A stretch of DNA of 25,877 nucleotides from an uncultured Lachnospiraceae bacterium (GTDB lineage: Bacteria; Bacillota; Clostridia; Lachnospirales; Lachnospiraceae). Positions within the stretch are counted from its first letter, which is position 1. Each line of letters starts with the position of its first letter. The position numbers and the translations under genes are program-made. Positions 394 through 22,607 of the stretch are shown piece by piece. The notes below the pieces were generated by a model. That model was not told the DNA's origin. It was given only the letters and a program-made list of their open reading frames with translations, and ran no database searches. Location of the stretch: assembly GCA_947653315.1 (NCBI GenBank), contig CANTGP010000002.1:1-25877 (forward strand). Direction: 5' to 3'.

Positions 394-1428
394 TCAAACC
401 CTTACGGCTTTTGCCGCGTAATCCGGGCTTCCATACCCTCTGATATAACGCCCGTTTACCGCCATTTCCCGGTATCCCACGGCATCATCCTTATTGCCCT
501 CGATGACCCTGACCGTATTGCCGCAGACGGATACCACAATGCCCACATGCTCCGGCCAGCCGGTACAGTCACCGGTGCCCTTGTCGTCCCAGTCATAAAA
601 GATATAGTCCCCGGCGGACGGGACATGGTCATCATCCTCCACCCAGCGCCCCGCTTTTTGGAAAAGCCCGATCATCCGGCCGCAACTGCATTCCGTCGGA
701 ATGATGTCCGTACAGCCTGCCGCAATGGCCGCCGCCGAAGCAAAAGCGGCACACCAGGAATCCGTATATTTTACCCGGTACCCGTTTGCAAGCGGGGCAT
801 GGCCGTTGTAAATGTCTATAATGGCGCGGTGGGAACCGTCGGCTTCCTTCCGCCCGTACCATCCGACCGCCGCCGATACGACTTTCTGCCTTGCCTCCCA
901 CTCCGTCACGGCGGGTTCCTCCTTCTTTCCCCCGCCCGTAAGAAGGGAACGTATTTCCTCACCGTAACGCGCCCTCCGCCGCCTTGCCCCTTCCGACTGG
1001 TCTGCCGGTCTTTCGTACTTTGTCAGGACGGTATCCGATGCCTCCCGCACCGATACCGCCGACATCAGGGCCTTAAACACCTTTGGGTATCCCTGCAGTT
1101 CCCCGTACATGAATGCAAGCTGCGTATCCAGGTCCCCCACCGACGTCCCGCGTTTCCGGGCAAAGTTTAACAGGTTTTCCTTCCTCGTATGGTAAGTCCA
1201 CTGTGCAAGCCCGTACCCCGCGGCATCCCGGACGAAATTCCCGTACTGCCCGGAATCCACCGCTTCCGTATAGGAATCGTCCGTGTACCCCAGTTTCCTT
1301 TCATAAGTGTTCTGCAGGTTCCTCGGGTTCAGCCCGCTTTCGTCCACCAGGTTCCCCATCAGCCCGTAAATGCCGCAGGGGGACATCCCCCTGGCGGCAA
1401 AGAAATCATAAATCCGTTTTTCGTTCAT
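394..1428 (-). CDS. Two-domain endolysin: phage tail-lysozyme-like glycosidase plus CHAP/NlpC-type cysteine peptidase
   Basis: This 344-residue lysin combines two likely peptidoglycan-cutting domains. Residues about 1-160 resemble the Phage_lysozyme2/tail-lysozyme family: a GxxGNLxxESGLxP motif around residues 22-35, with Glu30 the likely catalytic acid, then a GLAQWT segment near 73-78. After a Gly/Lys/Glu linker (about 164-176), the C-terminal part has Cys226 in a DSWCAAF context and His294 in a PEHVGIV context. Those are the nucleophile and base expected of a CHAP or NlpC/P60-like amidase/endopeptidase. There is no signal peptide, so it would need the holin encoded just upstream, whose stop codon overlaps this ATG (ATGA, 1425-1428). 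No separate wall-binding repeat is visible. The lysin role is well supported; the exact bond cut by each domain is inferred. Confidence 0.9.
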   Translation of the reverse strand: MNEKRIYDFFAARGMSPCGIYGLMGNLVDESGLNPRNLQNTYERKLGYTDDSYTEAVDSGQYGNFVRDAAGYGLAQWTYHTRKENLLNFARKRGTSVGDLDTQLAFMYGELQGYPKVFKALMSAVSVREASDTVLTKYERPADQSEGARRRRARYGEEIRSLLTGGGKKEEPAVTEWEARQKVVSAAVGWYGRKEADGSHRAIIDIYNGHAPLANGYRVKYTDSWCAAFASAAAIAAGCTDIIPTECSCGRMIGLFQKAGRWVEDDDHVPSAGDYIFYDWDDKGTGDCTGWPEHVGIVVSVCGNTVRVIEGNKDDAVGYREMAVNGRYIRGYGSPDYAAKAVRV

Positions 1429-1853
1429 TCCTGTCCCCTTTCCGCTTCCGCCCTGTTTTTCAGTACCTCAATGGCCTTGGTAATGACCGCGGGAATTGGG
1501 ATTCCCATCAGCCCCGCATTCTCAATAATGGATATGGTTTCATTCGCAATAAAGGCAATGACCACGGCATCCCTGATAAAGCTGGAACCCATGACCAAAT
1601 CCAGCCTGCATGCCACCAGCACGACAAGCAGCGTCACGCCTTTCCTGCACAGCCCCTTCCATCCGGCACGGCTTTCCAGCGCGCCGTTTTCCGTTTTTTC
1701 CGATTTATGGAAGACACCGGCAACGGTCAGGCCGGTAACATAATCGATCCCCATGAAAATAAGCAACGTGACAAGTGCGGCATCCCAGCCGCCAAACAGG
1801 GAAGCAATTCCGCTTCCAATCACGCCTATTAAAGTTAACAGTTTCATTTTCAT
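1425..1853 (-). CDS. Holin, TcdE/phage phi LC3-Cph1-type family
   Basis: This 142-residue protein has several hydrophobic segments (roughly residues 4-20, 24-46, 70-86 and 92-112) and a charged C-terminal tail. The pattern matches the Phage_holin_4 / toxin-secretion holin family common in clostridial phages, with an FxGIDYVTGL segment typical of the group. It would form membrane lesions that release the endolysin at the end of infection. The start at 1853 is chosen because GGAAAGGACGG lies just upstream; a longer frame to 1910 lacks a ribosome site. It overlaps the endolysin by ATGA, a classic holin-lysin pair. Confidence 0.9.
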   Translation of the reverse strand: MKMKLLTLIGVIGSGIASLFGGWDAALVTLLIFMGIDYVTGLTVAGVFHKSEKTENGALESRAGWKGLCRKGVTLLVVLVACRLDLVMGSSFIRDAVVIAFIANETISIIENAGLMGIPIPAVITKAIEVLKNRAEAERGQE

Positions 1854-1946
1854 TTTTCCGTCCTTTCCGCACACTGAAAAGGCACCCGCCTGACGCGCAT
1901 ATGGCGCCATACGGATGCCTTAACGTATGCCCTTGGCTGTTATGTC

Positions 1947-2154: not shown

Positions 2155-2565
2155 TTATTCCGCATTTCCCATCATTTCGTATGCCTCCGTCAGTGCCATC
2201 TGTGTGTTGGTCAGTTCCTCCGCCATTTCACCCAGCGCCGCATCCTGTACCCCCTGTCCCGCTTCGATGGCGTCCATCCTTTTTTCCATGGCATCCTTTT
2301 CCCTGAAGCAGAAGGATGTGAGGACGGTTCCGTCCGCCTGTACGGAAGATGTTTCATTTACCAGCAAAAGCCCCTTATATCTTCCGACGGCCAGCCCGGC
2401 ACCGTTTTTCACCTGCACTTCCGATAAATTGTCTTCCGACAGCCTGTCCCATCCCGCAAGGAATGCCGCCTTGTCCGGAAACAGTACCTTGGCGTCACCC
2501 AGGCTCGCCCCTGTCTCCAGTTCCATTACCGTGCCATCCTTTAACACTAAAGTATCCTTTTCCAT
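2155..2565 (-). CDS. Hypothetical phage protein downstream of the tail fibre
   Basis: This predicts a 136-residue acidic protein with no membrane segment. The first 90 residues look like a small beta-rich domain (alternating hydrophobics, KDGTVMELETG near the start). The last 45 residues form a likely alpha-helical or coiled segment. Start at 2565, with AAGGAAG upstream in the sense strand. Proteins of this shape are often found between fibre genes and the CD1375-holin block in clostridial phages, and may be fibre-associated or assembly accessory factors, but I cannot assign a function. It lies immediately downstream of the invertible fibre segment, outside the inverted repeat. Confidence 0.65.
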   Translation of the reverse strand: MEKDTLVLKDGTVMELETGASLGDAKVLFPDKAAFLAGWDRLSEDNLSEVQVKNGAGLAVGRYKGLLLVNETSSVQADGTVLTSFCFREKDAMEKRMDAIEAGQGVQDAALGEMAEELTNTQMALTEAYEMMGNAE

Positions 2566-2607: not shown

Positions 2608-2627
2608 GTGGGATAAACGGCAATTTA
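2608..2627 (+). repeat. Inverted repeat, left crossover site of the fibre switch
   Basis: GTGGGATAAACGGCAATTTA on the plus strand is a perfect 20-base match to the minus-strand sequence at 3298-3279. Within it, TAAA and TTTA form a small dyad around CGGCAA, as expected for half-sites flanking a strand-exchange core. Both copies are read in the same codon phase (GGG ATA AAC GGC AAT TTA), so recombination anywhere inside keeps the frame. Confidence 0.85.
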
Positions 2628-2897
2628 CCTGAATTTGCGATACGGAGGGTAACCACTGCGGCAACTGCGTCTGAATCAACATTCTGCCCTCCTCCGGATA
2701 GTAGCTGGAATTACAAAAATACAATTGTATTAAAAACCAGGTGCCTTCATACAGGAAACAGTACTTATTACGAAAATGCTTTAATATGCAGTCAAATTGC
2801 AAGCAGTTATATCAGGCTGGTCTATGCGAACTCTGAAAATGCAGCCAGTTTTTTAAACACAAAGGCGGAGGTATACCTAATGAAGATTCCGGTATGA
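2608..2897 (+). other. Silent alternative tail-fibre C-terminal cassette (inverted orientation, no start codon of its own)
   Basis: On the plus strand, a frame open from the inverted repeat at 2608 to the TGA at 2895-2897 begins with the codons for G-I-N-G-N-L, exactly as in the expressed fibre gene on the opposite strand, then diverges into 89 different residues ending in KIPV. There is no ribosome site or plausible start at its beginning. Its stop lies 9 bases from the stop of the fibre gene, tail to tail. The cassette is AT-rich (20 G/C of 60 in 2701-2760, against 35 of 60 in 3601-3660 of the constant fibre part). I read it as the stored alternative 3' end of the fibre gene. Residues include a WNYKNTIVL stretch and a Ser/Asn/Tyr-rich tail, consistent with a receptor-binding domain, but no family is recognised. 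Confidence 0.82.
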
Positions 2898-2906
2898 TTT
2901 ATATAA

Positions 2907-3797
2907 TTAAGCTGATCTTTCCCAAATGTATACTGCTTTGTAAGGCGGCATATTGTTATGCGCACCGCCTCCACCGGCAGTCTCATCAGCCGGGGTAGTA
3001 TCTACAGAATTGGCATTCACCGCCCATGCCTGCTCACTGCTTCCCCCGGATGCCGGATGAAAGGATGTATCCGCCCTTATCGTATGTCTGTGGCTTGGCA
3101 TTTCTGCGGCGGTTAATGTGTGTTTTGCCTCGCCTCCGGTTGCATTTGCCTTATATGTGCTGGATGCCCCGAGCAGAAATCTTCCTTCAATTTTAAGCCA
3201 TTTTGTGCCCCCATACACAGCGATAACTTTTGCTTCTGTATTTAGTGTTGTACTATGTATAATCATGCCGACATGAGATAAATTGCCGTTTATCCCACTA
3301 ATCATGTCCGCCAGTGCCTTCCCCTGCACCGCGTCCAGCGGGTTTCCCGGTTCCGTTGCCAGCAGGTTGTTGACAAGCTGTGATTTCGCCAGCAGGTACC
3401 CCTCCATAAAACCTTTTGCAAGGTATTGCCAGTTTGCCACGTCAGCCGTCGGCGGTCCTTCCGGTCCGTCCTTCATGGCCACAAACGTGCTTCCCTCGTA
3501 AAAAACCGCGTCCAGGCGTTCATATTCCGCTTCCGGGTCATACGCACCCTTATACGCTATCCCCACCAGTGCCATTTTCTGGACAAGCTCGTTTATTGCG
3601 CCGACAAAATTATCCCTGTTCCGTGTCTCCAGTTCCGCCGTTTCGCCCAGCGGGAGGGAACTGCCCACGGATTTTACCATGTCCTCATGCAGTACCCGCT
3701 TGGTACCCGTCCCGTCCCCCATTTCCACGATGTAACTGCTTCCGTCCGGGACGGATGCGGCCTTTTCCAGTTCCGTTATTTTTTTCCCTTGGTTCAT
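2907..3797 (-). CDS. Tail fibre/baseplate protein with Gp10-type collar domain; 3' end lies in an invertible segment
   Basis: This is a 296-residue putative fibre. The N-terminal ~167 residues (a short helical segment, a Gly/Asp-rich stretch, then VGIAYKGAYDPEAEYERLDAVFYEGS and a helical linker) form the constant part. From about residue 168 the protein is encoded inside the invertible interval and ends in a collar-like domain: GGTKWLKIEGRFLLG, a TAAEMPSHRHTI segment, and GGGGAHNNMPPYKAVYIWERSA. These are hallmarks of the T4 Gp10 C-terminal/phage collar family found on fibre tips. Start at 3797 gives a proper distance to AGGAGG; an ATG two codons earlier is too close. Likely role: host receptor contact, with the C-terminus exchanged by inversion with the cassette at 2608-2897. 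Confidence 0.85.
   Translation of the reverse strand: MNQGKKITELEKAASVPDGSSYIVEMGDGTGTKRVLHEDMVKSVGSSLPLGETAELETRNRDNFVGAINELVQKMALVGIAYKGAYDPEAEYERLDAVFYEGSTFVAMKDGPEGPPTADVANWQYLAKGFMEGYLLAKSQLVNNLLATEPGNPLDAVQGKALADMISGINGNLSHVGMIIHSTTLNTEAKVIAVYGGTKWLKIEGRFLLGASSTYKANATGGEAKHTLTAAEMPSHRHTIRADTSFHPASGGSSEQAWAVNANSVDTTPADETAGGGGAHNNMPPYKAVYIWERSA
3279..3298 (-). repeat. Inverted repeat, right crossover site inside the fibre gene
   Basis: The minus-strand copy of GTGGGATAAACGGCAATTTA falls at codons 167-173 of the fibre gene and separates the constant N-terminal part from the variable C-terminal part. It is identical over 20 bases to 2608-2627 in the opposite orientation, 691 bp from outer edge to outer edge. 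Flanking bases diverge at once on both sides, so identity is confined to the site, as expected for a site-specific recombination target rather than a recent duplication. Confidence 0.85.
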
Positions 3798-3820
3798 TTC
3801 CATGTCCTCCTGATATCATT

Positions 3821-4938: not shown

Positions 4939-6033
4939 CTATGTCGTCTCCTTCCTGATTATCTTCTTAAAATCCGTCGCGCCGTCATTCCCGAAGATGA
5001 CGCTTAGTGTCCTCTTTGAACCCTCCAGCACTTCCTGGATTTCCGTGATCCGCTTGGAACACTCCATGTCCACGTCGCTGTACCGGTAGGTGCACAGGTC
5101 GCCCAGGTCAAAATCCGTGCCGTAGGCAAGGTTTGCGGCCGGGTCAATGTCACTGTCCACCTTTTCCACGGCGGCATAATCGGACAGCTTTTCAAGCCCG
5201 CGCTGGAACAGCAGGTCCCGGTACTGTGCATCCGTGTAGTTTACCGTGTCGGAATGCTGCTGCAGGTCCCGTGCGTCCACCCACAGTTCCCTGCGCTCCT
5301 CCCCGGGTCCCTGCCGGACGTCCACCTCCACCACCTTCCGTTCCGCGCCTTCCCCTTCCCCCGCCACGTACGCGAAGTTCCTGCAGTCCGACGTGTCGCG
5401 GTCATACTGCGCGTTTTTAATGTTTCGGAAATGGTCGGAAAAGACCGCCCAACTGTTTTCCGTCTGTGAATCCCTCCGGTCGAGCCCCTTCCACACCTCA
5501 TAGGACAGCGTGTTTTCCAGGTAGTCGAAAACAAGGCGCTGCGACATTTCCTGTGTTTTCAGCATGTCGTACAGGCGGGTCCCCACATGGTCCCCCGTAT
5601 TCTGCAGGGTTATGGGACTGCCCCCGCCCCGCGCCCGCCCGAGCCGGATGCCGCGGATTTTCCTTCCCGCATCCGCCGGGTTTATGACATAACGGCTGAC
5701 CACGGAACGCGCCAGCGTCTCGGGGGTCCCGGTCTGGTTAAACGCCGGGAAAAGCACGTTGCTGTCCAGCAGGTGCTCCGCAAAATACCCCTTGCAGTAT
5801 GCCGTCTTCTCCCCTTTTTCCCCGCGCATGAAATTCACTTCCCGGATGACCCCGAGTTCCGTGCGGTCGTTCCGGTAAAGGTACCGTCCCCTGTTTACCA
5901 GGTCAAAGTATTCCGCGGGGACATGGAGCTCGAAAATCCCCGGACTGTAATAGCGGCGGTACCACAGCAGGGTATTGAATACCCCTATGGAACCCATGGT
6001 TTGGAAATCCCCGTCAAATATAATGAACTGCAT
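4939..6033 (-). CDS. Gp37-like siphovirus tail protein (tail-associated hub component)
   Basis: This 364-residue protein begins MQFIIFDGDFQTMGSIG and continues with WYRRYYSPGIFELHVP, the signature I associate with the ReqiPepy6 Gp37-like family of Firmicutes tail proteins. This family acts like the hub (gp27/Tal) at the tail tip. The middle contains a YEVWKGLDRR segment and an ending with FDLGDLCTYRY...KRITEIQEVLEGS, both typical. It starts one base after the Dit stop codon and ends two bases before the next start, so the tail-tip genes are tightly coupled. No lysozyme or peptidase domain is fused, so this tip protein is probably structural only. Confidence 0.85.
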   Translation of the reverse strand: MQFIIFDGDFQTMGSIGVFNTLLWYRRYYSPGIFELHVPAEYFDLVNRGRYLYRNDRTELGVIREVNFMRGEKGEKTAYCKGYFAEHLLDSNVLFPAFNQTGTPETLARSVVSRYVINPADAGRKIRGIRLGRARGGGSPITLQNTGDHVGTRLYDMLKTQEMSQRLVFDYLENTLSYEVWKGLDRRDSQTENSWAVFSDHFRNIKNAQYDRDTSDCRNFAYVAGEGEGAERKVVEVDVRQGPGEERRELWVDARDLQQHSDTVNYTDAQYRDLLFQRGLEKLSDYAAVEKVDSDIDPAANLAYGTDFDLGDLCTYRYSDVDMECSKRITEIQEVLEGSKRTLSVIFGNDGATDFKKIIRKETT

Positions 6034-6952: not shown

Positions 6953-9900
6953 TACTTCACACCCCCGGCAAATTTCCGGAACGCTTCCCTCTGCGCCCGG
7001 TTTGTCTCCGCCGGTGTCGCCACCGGCACATGGTAATTGTTCTCCTGTTCCATGCGGTTGTCGTTATACACGACCGTGCCCGCGGACGCCAGTGCCAGCG
7101 CCCCGGCCGCGCCGGATGCATTCAGGGAGACTTCCCCCATGGATGCGGCCACCGTGCCCTGCATGGCCGCCAGCAGTTCCCCCGCCTGTTCCCGCATTTC
7201 CCGCAGTGTCCCCGGCATGGACTTCCTTACGCCCTCCATGGTTCCCGGCATCAGCCATTTCCCGAATTCATCACGGAATGCCCTTGACGGGGAATTTATC
7301 CCGAGCGCACCCTTTGCGCTGTCCAGCAGGCTGTTGGCCACGTCCGCAACCTTGCCCTTTAACCACTCCCAGCCGCCTGAAATGCCGTTCCATATGCCGG
7401 TAATGATATTGCTTCCCACTTCCGCCATTTTATCCGGCAGGCCGCTGATGCCGTCCACGACCGCATCGAACAGGCCGCGTGCCGCCTCCGCGCCTTTCCG
7501 TATCATGTCACTGCACCATTCCGCAACCCTTGCCAGTACGTCCGACAGCTTTGCGGCCACTTTTCCGGGCAGTTCCGACAGAAGGGAAATGACGGCGGAA
7601 ACCATGCTGCCGATTGCCGTCCGCGCGTTGTCCAGCATCTGCCTGCCCCATTCCACCGCCTTCGCGATTACATTGGCAAGCCATGTCCATACCTTACCGG
7701 GCAGTTGTGACAGCAGGGAAATGATGCTGGAAATCATGTTCTGTATGGCATTGGATGCCGTGGCCATCATCTGCTGTCCCCACTGGACCACCTTTGTGAC
7801 CACGTTTACCAGCCATGTCCATATTTTACCGGGGAGCTGTGCAATCAGTTTTACGGCGGTGTTTACCACGTTCCGCATTATGGCCTGCGCATTGCCAAGC
7901 ATCTGCTGGCCCCATGCCATTACCTTTTGGACTGTCTCGTCCAGGTATGCGGCCAGTTCTGCGGGCATGCCGGCGATGCCGTTTACAAGCCCCTGTACCA
8001 GGAAGTCCCCCTGCTCCGCCATTACGGTCGACGGGCTGTGTATCCCGAAAAATCCCTTGATGCTGTCCAGCATACCGGAACACAGTCCCCCAAGGGCATC
8101 CCATAATCCGTCCAGCGCACCGGTAATCCCGGCAACCAGCCCCTTAATGACGTTTATCCCAAGGTCAAGCCAGTCTATGCTTTTGAAGAAATTAACCGCC
8201 ATGCCGCCTATGGATTTCAGAAGGTTCGGGATCGCCGTAAGCAGGGACTTAATACCGTTTACCATGAAATTAATGATATCCGTTCCCAGCGTACGCCAGT
8301 TAATGCCGCGTATCAGGCTCACCGCTTTGTTAAAAATACCCTTCAGCAGATCCGGGATATGATGTACTGCATTTGGTATGGCTGCCACAAAACTTTTTAC
8401 CCCGTTCGCAATGGCGGTTATGATGTTCTTACCAAGCGCCAGCCAGTTAAAAGCCGTGAATACGGAAACAACGGCCTGTATAATCTGCGGGATATTGGAA
8501 ACCAAGGTTGGAACCGCCTTTATCAGCCCCATTGCCAGGTTTCCGATCAACTCTATCCCAGCGGCCAGTAATTTCGGCGCATTGTCATTAATTATCCCGG
8601 CTATGTTGGTTATAATGGCGGGAACCATTTCGATGAAAACCGGTATGCCGTCAATCAGGGACTGCGCCAGTGTCATAACCAGGTTCAATCCGGCATCAAC
8701 CAGCAGGCCGATATTTTCACGCAGGGAGCCGGAAAATTCCACAAGGGCCTGCATGGCCGTTGGGATTAAACGGGGCAGGTTGGCCGCAATTCCTTCCGCG
8801 AGCCGGTCCAGTAAACCCGCCCCCGCGGCAGCCGCCTGCGGCAGTGCGGACATCAGGGTATCAAACAGGGTTGACGCAATGTTAACCGCACGTCCCGCCA
8901 GCACCGGAAGCATGCCCGCAACACCTTCCGCCAAAGCCGTAATTATGGTTCCCCCTGCCTGCAGGAAATCCGGAAGCCCGTCGGCTATGCATTCCACAAT
9001 GTCAGTGACAGCCGTGGAAGCAGCCTGGACCATCTGCGGCGCACCTTCGGCAATCCCTTCCGCCAGTTTGCCGATCAGGACTATGGCCGTTGTCCATATC
9101 TCGCCTACACAGGAAAAAAGGCCGGTGACAAGTGACGTGATCAGGCTTGCGCCCGATTCCCCGATTCCCGGCGCGCTTTTCAGGCCGTCACAAAATGACG
9201 TGACCAGACTGACGGCGGCTTCAATGACCGCCGGGGCCGCTTCCGCTATCCTTTGGACAATCTGCGCCAGTACGTTCCCAACAGAACCGACCAGTCCCTC
9301 AAAACCCCCCGTGTCAAAGGCGTCCTTAAGCTGCTGCACCATCCCCTGTGCTTCCTTCACCACGTCCTTTGCCGTGTCCTGCATGGTTTCATACAGGGCA
9401 ACGCCCAGCCCTTCAAGCCCGGACTGCAGGATTACCAACTGCCCCTGCAGGTTGTCCTGCATGATTGCCGCCATTTCCTCCGCCGAGCCGGTGCAGTTCA
9501 TGATGGCGCCGGACAGCTTTTCGAAGTCCTCATCCGATGCATTAACGATTGCCAGCAGCCCCGACATGGCCTCCTGCCCTGCCAGCATGGCGGCATATTT
9601 GGCCTTTTCCGCGCCTTCCGCGCCATATGCCAGCCCGATCAGGCGTTGGACTTCCGCATCATATTTCTTTTGCGTAAGGGTCCCGTCCGCAAGCCGGGAA
9701 TTCAGTGACGCCAGCCGTTCATTAAATTCATCCTGCGGGATCATTAGCTCACCGAAACCGGAACGCAGGTCATTCATGATTTCCTTGAACGACTTCATGT
9801 TACCCTCGCCGTCATCAAGGGTTATCCCGAGTTCCTTCATGGCGGTTTCGGATTCCTTTGTCGGCTTCGCAAGCCGCGTAAGCATGGAACGGAGGGCAGT

Positions 9901-21984: not shown

Positions 21985-22383
21985 CTACCGGCCCTGGATT
22001 TTCAACTCGCTCTTAAGCGCCGCCGTTAAGATTGCGGAAAAATTCACCCCCGCTTTTTCGGCTTCGAAGTTCAGCCAGGACGGTATCGTGCAGTTCTTTT
22101 TTACCGCCCTTATGTCGTTTTTCCTGCGGTATTCCCCAAAATCCACGTCCACAAGTGTCACAATGTCCGTATCCGAATCCGTCCTTACCCCCGAAACCTC
22201 TGTCGGCTCCGGCAGTACTTCCCCGTCGTCCTCCATGTCAATACCGACAGCCCCGATCGCGTCCCTTGCCATTTCAATCGCATCCGCCACGTCCTCCCCC
22301 TGTGTATTAATTTCAAAATCGGGGATGTACGCAACGATAAATTTTTCACCCCGTGATAAAATAACCGGATATGCTTTTTTCAT
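21985..22383 (-). CDS. hicB: HicB antitoxin
   Basis: This 132-residue protein has an N-terminal HicB partial RNase H-like fold (KKAYPVILSRGEKFIVAYIPDFEINTQGEDVADAIEMARDAIG pattern, residues 1-45) and a C-terminal ribbon-helix-helix-like segment (CTIPSWLNFEAEKAGVNFSAILTAALKSEL, about 98-127) for DNA binding and autoregulation. It is encoded 28 bases after hicA in the hicA-hicB order and would neutralise HicA and repress the promoter at 22608-22637. Confidence 0.93.
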   Translation of the reverse strand: MKKAYPVILSRGEKFIVAYIPDFEINTQGEDVADAIEMARDAIGAVGIDMEDDGEVLPEPTEVSGVRTDSDTDIVTLVDVDFGEYRRKNDIRAVKKNCTIPSWLNFEAEKAGVNFSAILTAALKSELKIQGR

Positions 22384-22411
22384 TCTGAAAACCTCCCTAA
22401 CATGGTTTTAT

Positions 22412-22585
22412 TTATTTCAGCCCGTTCCGCCTGATAATCGCTTTTGCCAAATCCTCATCCGTTTCCCTGTGCCTTACGATGCTTTCCCTTTTCCCGTCTT
22501 TTTCATAGACGTCATGGTTCCCTCCGTGCCGCTTGAATTTCCAGCCGTTACTCTCCAACAGTTTTACCAGGTCCTTTGTTTTCAT
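22412..22585 (-). CDS. hicA: HicA mRNA interferase toxin
   Basis: This 57-residue toxin (MKTKDLVKLLESNGWKF then KRHGGNHDVYEKDG) has the dsRBD-like HicA fold and the catalytic His24 in the GGNH motif. It would cleave mRNA when HicB is lost. Start at 22585 follows AAGGAGGG with normal spacing; a longer frame to 22606 has no support. With hicB it may stabilise the prophage or block competing phages. It has an independent consensus promoter immediately upstream. Confidence 0.93.
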   Translation of the reverse strand: MKTKDLVKLLESNGWKFKRHGGNHDVYEKDGKRESIVRHRETDEDLAKAIIRRNGLK

Positions 22586-22607
22586 TCCGCCCCTCCTTAT
22601 ACCCACA

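Follow-up and report, generated by a model that had tools for sequence, protein, structure and literature searches.

Can the tip of this prophage's tail fibre be exchanged by inverting a short piece of DNA, and which class of enzyme would carry out the exchange? The first-pass annotation took the fibre C-terminus to be exchangeable by inversion, and this claim is supported by natural proteins with ends swapped at the junction, by paired crossover cores around a recombinase gene in the genome G307, and by a flip between two relatives (L306 and L307). On these sequence comparisons, the interval 2608-3298 is probably a site-specific switch of the fibre tip that operates by DNA inversion.

Geometry of the cassette

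The window, the whole stretch of 25,877 nucleotides analyzed here, is one entire contig (G000:C2) of a draft genome of 508 contigs that is 81% complete. Late genes of a siphophage-like prophage lie on its minus strand and encode terminase, portal, capsid, tape measure, Dit and Gp37-like proteins, followed by a 371-aa structural protein, the fibre, a 136-aa protein, a holin and an endolysin. The cassette and its neighbors are arranged as follows.

1425..1910, minus strand: holin (PF05105), 84% identical in G307
2155..2565, minus strand: 136-aa protein just past the cassette, in the same place in the G307 prophage and 59% identical there
2608..2627, plus strand: left inverted repeat at the outer end of the silent arm, with core TAAACGGCAATTTA at 2614-2627
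2628..2897, plus strand: silent variable end, 89 codons and stop, in phase with the constant part
2907..3278, minus strand: expressed variable end and stop, a Gp10_C-like tip (PF21939, 38.8 bits, cut-off 27)
3279..3298, minus strand: right inverted repeat inside the fibre gene, with the core at 3279-3292
3279..3803, minus strand: fibre gene, constant part (codons 1-175), which ends in ...ISGINGNL; 171-173 of 173 residues identical in P0001-P0003
3821..4936, minus strand: upstream neighbor of the fibre gene, a 371-aa structural protein (54% identity to its G307 counterpart)
4939..6033, minus strand: Gp37-like minor tail protein (PF14594), 85% identical in L076 and 49% in G307

The layout set out in the first-pass annotation holds on re-examination, from the repeats to the base composition of the arms. 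Comparison of the window with itself recovers 2608-2627 and 3279-3298 as perfect 20-bp inverted repeats bounding 691 bp; stretched to 23 nt, they acquire one mismatched position. At up to three mismatches the window holds only these two copies, and copies at this threshold arose in 0 of 100 dinucleotide-preserving shuffles of it; the own genome has no further copy within two mismatches. Both repeats contain the 14-bp core, which falls within the codons for I-N-G-N-L, and the rare leucine codon TTA (23 of 476 in 19 window genes) is retained at the site.

The fibre ORF (3803..2907, minus strand, 298 aa) stops at 2909-2907 and the silent plus-strand frame, read from a GGG codon at 2610, stops at 2895-2897, leaving nine bases (2898-2906) between the tail-to-tail frames. 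Phase arithmetic places the corresponding GGG of the fibre gene at 3296 on the minus strand, with G-I-N-G-N-L read in the same phase in both arms. The flipped product, put at about 262 residues with 89 new C-terminal ones in the first-pass annotation, is predicted to span 264 codons if translation begins at the ATG at 3803 and 262 if it begins at the third codon, as in natural relatives; one of these, P0004, has 262 residues. Past the site the silent frame runs through 89 codons without a stop, as do 39 of 20,000 base shuffles of the same stretch. The G+C content is 55.4% in the constant part, 48.8% in the expressed arm and 41.2% in the silent arm, with 55.2% for the window.

In the mechanism that we propose, the two inverted sites, which share the core TAAA-CGGCAA-TTTA, would be the substrate of a Xer-type tyrosine recombinase. 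Inversion of the intervening piece would then place the silent 89-residue tip behind the constant part, replacing the Gp10-type tip. Such an exchange may alter the receptor that is recognized, and the phage may have a phase-variable host range.

Natural proteins with exchanged ends

A search for relatives of the fibre found 823 homologous proteins, and the best eleven of the 120 listed were inspected together with P0121. P0001 carries the window's Gp10-type end on a constant part that is identical at 171 of 173 residues. P0002, with all 173 residues of the constant part identical, and P0003, with 171, each bear a further, different end joined exactly at INGNL. P0004 (159/173) has at this same junction an in-frame homologue of the window's silent end (75 of 89 residues identical). 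The silent end is therefore a tip that is read in frame elsewhere; the end of P0121 is 80% identical to it. More ends occur on the related constant parts of P0005-P0010, with the junction at N-S-N-L, and in P0011 the boundary between constant and variable parts is blurred.

The silent 89 residues, which the first-pass annotation had marked for comparison with fibre proteins, thus have homologues among them, but its picture of two ends proves too small. More than two ends exist: the Gp10-type end and those of P0002 and P0003, all on constant parts alike at 171-173 of 173 residues, and the silent end. The P0002 and P0003 ends gave no match in the own genome in a search run without a positive control.

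The silent end had also been described as lacking a recognized fold, a description that structure prediction does not bear out. In a model of P0004, the silent-type arm is beta-rich and lies behind a helix; residues 181-260 have pLDDT values of about 85-92 in a model that is otherwise poor (mean 53.6). Structure comparison gives weak best matches, the ends of phage tailspikes and pyocin fibres among them. The silent-type end as modelled is a compact beta domain, which fits a receptor-binding tip.

Exchanged ends could also arise if the repeat were simply a conserved coding motif, with no site-specific inversion, and ends were swapped between phages by homologous recombination. The site is indeed part of the coding sequence of a conserved protein motif, and ends resembling each other are found behind differing constant parts. 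We nevertheless consider this origin very unlikely: the outer repeat is not needed for coding as the piece is now oriented but still matches over 20 bp, and the comparisons below place such sites beside recombinase genes and tail-to-tail ends.

Flips and crossovers in relatives

Loci L306 and L307 have collinear flanks, 90% and 97% identical over about 4 kb each, between which a 433-bp arm is inverted at 98.4% identity. Their fibre ORFs share the constant part and differ in their ends. This difference is a flip, and an inverted arm between collinear flanks argues against homologous exchange of ends. It took place at a site of the type found in the genome G223, different in sequence from that of the window, and L307 is identical to the G223 locus L067 over 10,804 bases. 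The first-pass annotation had proposed to seek the opposite orientation in related phages; this pair shows two orientations of an arm, at a site sequence other than that of the window.

Crossover at the window's core is suggested by the genome G303, in which contigs C48 and C291 have a common arm, with one base different in 110 beside the core, and diverge exactly at the core. One arm thus stands behind two different upstream sequences, and the same tip recurs in G307. Among the G303 sites (L361, contig C48, 111-170; L362, contig C291, 6341-6410), one with a fibre arm follows an apparent tape-measure gene and another is just upstream of a Dit-like gene. Two G303 contigs start with the same arm, reflecting either a rearranged array or an assembly fork.

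A tyrosine recombinase linked to the site

The fibre constant part was matched in three of 16 genomes of the host genus: the own genome, which was included in the search, G307 and, weakly, G310. In G307 (L262), the core TAAACGGCAATTTA occurs four times, at 7114+, 7756-, 8935+ and 9530-, forming two inverted pairs with the gene for a 329-aa tyrosine recombinase (7828-8817) between them. All four arms are open in phase, giving an array of four ends. The tail regions of G307 and the window are syntenic, with five neighboring genes 49-84% identical; the endolysins of the two prophages gave no match to each other.

The G307 recombinase scores 246 bits against the XerA-type model NF040815 (cut-off 220), and its top-ranking relatives in the PDB are XerC-like, XerA and XerD proteins. 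Two relatives of this enzyme, both slightly below the NF040815 cut-off, have similar settings: one in the genome G033 (43% identical) adjoins an inverted pair with the core TAAATAGTGATTTA, and one in G223 (50% identical) lies amid four Gp10-type ends with a different repeat. The G033 locus (L264, contig C44, 4581-13769) is near the gene for a 1790-aa repeat-type protein and perhaps outside a complete prophage. The site is linked to a tyrosine recombinase of the Xer type, and an enzyme of this class would probably flip the cassette.

The fibre segments of phages Mu and P1 (Gin/Cin) are flipped by a serine-family invertase, with an enhancer bound by Fis as a further element of such switches. The first-pass annotation had assigned the window to this architecture; the comparison stands for the layout, which is the same, but not for the site-linked enzyme. 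A serine invertase supplied in trans might still be imagined to flip the cassette, and contig C29 of the own genome encodes a single small protein of resolvase type (199 aa). The remaining C29 genes appear chromosomal, however, the same core adjoins a tyrosine recombinase in G307, and related sites adjoin tyrosine recombinases elsewhere, which makes a serine enzyme extremely unlikely.

Distribution of the site

The exact core TAAACGGCAATTTA is present in 20 of 395 relative genomes, and in both orientations in only three, all of the host genus (G000, G307 and G303, the last with copies on three contigs). In IMG/VR, the 80 loci listed with the exact core include no inverted pair. Among at least 120 loci fetched with TAAATAGTGATTTA, an inverted pair within 2.5 kb occurs in at least three (L171, L183 and L208), each time around tail-to-tail fibre ends, which again speaks against a mere coding motif. 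In another IMG/VR locus (L003, 5969-8577), inverted repeats of 24 bp enclose a fibre end; past the lysis genes, the Gp10-type end occurs once more, again accompanied by the repeat.

A search of 65 IMG/VR loci that encode a relative of the G307 recombinase found 13 sites of the general pattern TAAA[CT][AG]G[CT][AG]ATTTA in seven loci, and none of the reversed pattern. Six of these seven are among the eight loci whose enzyme is most similar to that of G307 (60-79% identity). To the first-pass annotation, related phages with stops in the silent frame and divergent repeats would have spoken against inversion. This was not the pattern observed: each of the 19 arms translated from sites in eight related loci, chosen for holding site pairs or, in L296, three sites, remains open over some 80 codons at least. 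L296 encodes a 79% identical recombinase beside the core TAAACAGCAATTTA and is otherwise unlike the phage of the window.

Source of the recombinase

A profile search of the contig gave no match to PF00589 (tyrosine recombinases) or PF00239 (serine recombinases). The own genome, at 81% completeness, has three PF00589 matches, none of them G307-like, the best compared being a C59 protein with 27% identity over 149 aa. Contig C59 is phage-like and carries, among DNA methyltransferase genes, a gene for a 268-aa Xer-like tyrosine recombinase (L068, 2102-2908). Since the window holds one inverted pair and one silent end, while the contig lacks a recognizable recombinase and the incomplete genome has no recognized enzyme like that of G307, the flipping enzyme may act in trans, may have been lost or may lie in an unassembled part. 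In our proposal a Xer-type enzyme would be supplied in trans to this recombinase-less copy, from another prophage, from the host or from the unassembled part of the phage.

Loss of the enzyme would imply a locked relic, a cassette that once flipped, lost its recombinase and second pair, and is now frozen in one state with its silent arm intact. The missing recombinase agrees with this. Deletion between two direct sites of a larger, G307-like array would leave the one-pair layout of the window; as the origin of this cassette, active or frozen, it is a guess. We find a frozen state unlikely, as the frame of the silent arm is intact, P0004 and P0121 retain the protein that it encodes, and the 20-bp repeats are perfect. 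Moreover, a recombinase-less inverted locus of Bifidobacterium prophages did flip between two strains (PMC6109161).

An active switch served in trans leads to a more tentative idea, which we regard as possible but rather doubtful: a shared pool of tips, in which phages of these hosts would retain a short Xer-type site within the junction codons of the fibre gene, and one prophage or host recombinase would flip recombinase-less cassettes and even move tips between different phages, much as in an integron. The hints are the G303 arm behind two upstream sequences, its recurrence in G307, a tip behind the core in G303 that by eye resembles that of P0008, and the L296 recombinase.

Relation to known systems

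The closest published system is the Rin shufflon, and the window cassette would, by analogy, work like its smallest form. Described from Bifidobacterium prophages (PMC6109161) and from Eggerthella lenta clade 1 prophages (PMC8778435), it combines a 168-residue constant part of the receptor-binding protein, exchangeable C-terminal ends of about 95-100 residues and short crossover repeats at the junction, which in Bifidobacterium are the 11-bp TTCCCTAACCC. An armless XerD-like tyrosine recombinase adjoins the array, and flips appear in prophage and virion reads (PMC6109161, PMC8778435). The window shares with Rin a constant fibre part, in-phase exchangeable C-terminal ends and a short crossover repeat at each junction, and G307 shares the Xer-like recombinase beside the array. 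In contrast, Rin has several ends and an adjacent recombinase, belongs to other hosts and, in Bifidobacterium, uses a site unlike the window's 14-bp core. As the window has neither an adjacent recombinase nor several ends, we do not class it as a Rin shufflon.

A second comparison is offered by the tRNA-Met prophages 689b-1 and Bb423phi2, which have another inverted locus of about 500 bp with no recombinase adjoining (PMC6109161). The piece that is inverted between the two prophages, at the 8-bp repeat CAGGGTTA, contains a small gene together with the 3′ end of the adjacent one, and the authors propose an invertase in trans (PMC6109161). The short-repeat inversion layout and the absence of a recombinase beside it are as in the window. 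Those genes are without recognized function, whereas the window gene encodes a fibre and a recombinase array with the same site is known in the host genus. In the Gin/Cin segments of Mu and P1 and in Min of p15B, the constant part likewise lies outside and ends are exchanged by inversion (PMC6109161). Gin/Cin and the window both place tail-to-tail alternative fibre ends between inverted sites; they differ in the enzyme, the window's site being linked to a tyrosine recombinase.

Our literature search found no published case of fibre switching for phages of these hosts. The analysis defines a crossover core for such switching and points to a recombinase family that probably performs it. The window represents a minimal form of the cassette whose enzyme would come from elsewhere, unless it is lost or unassembled. 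If the site is shared, the recombinase of a resident prophage could set the fibre tip of another phage.

Prophage context and a second diversification system

Positions 1-55 of the window overlap exactly with the end of contig C109 (8493-8547), which is otherwise chromosomal-looking, and the overlap lies inside a gene that we take to be FeoB-like. The left end of the window is thus probably the attachment junction of the prophage, and the early genes and integrase should lie past its right end. At 21985-22606, a HicB-like and HicA-like toxin-antitoxin pair adjoins the terminase genes.

A scan of 29 predicted window proteins against Pfam gave no reverse transcriptase (RVT_1). Two relatives, L077 (Gp37-like protein 84% identical) and Acutalibacter phage Fontainebleau (63% identical), have a reverse transcriptase gene downstream of the tail genes, near the fibre position:

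L077, 10584-11849: RVT_1 gene
ON453893, 35351-36376: RVT_1 gene

The presence of this gene suggests a diversity-generating retroelement. As the gene occupies the same genome stretch in these relatives, two dissimilar mechanisms of tip variation may substitute for one another at this position.
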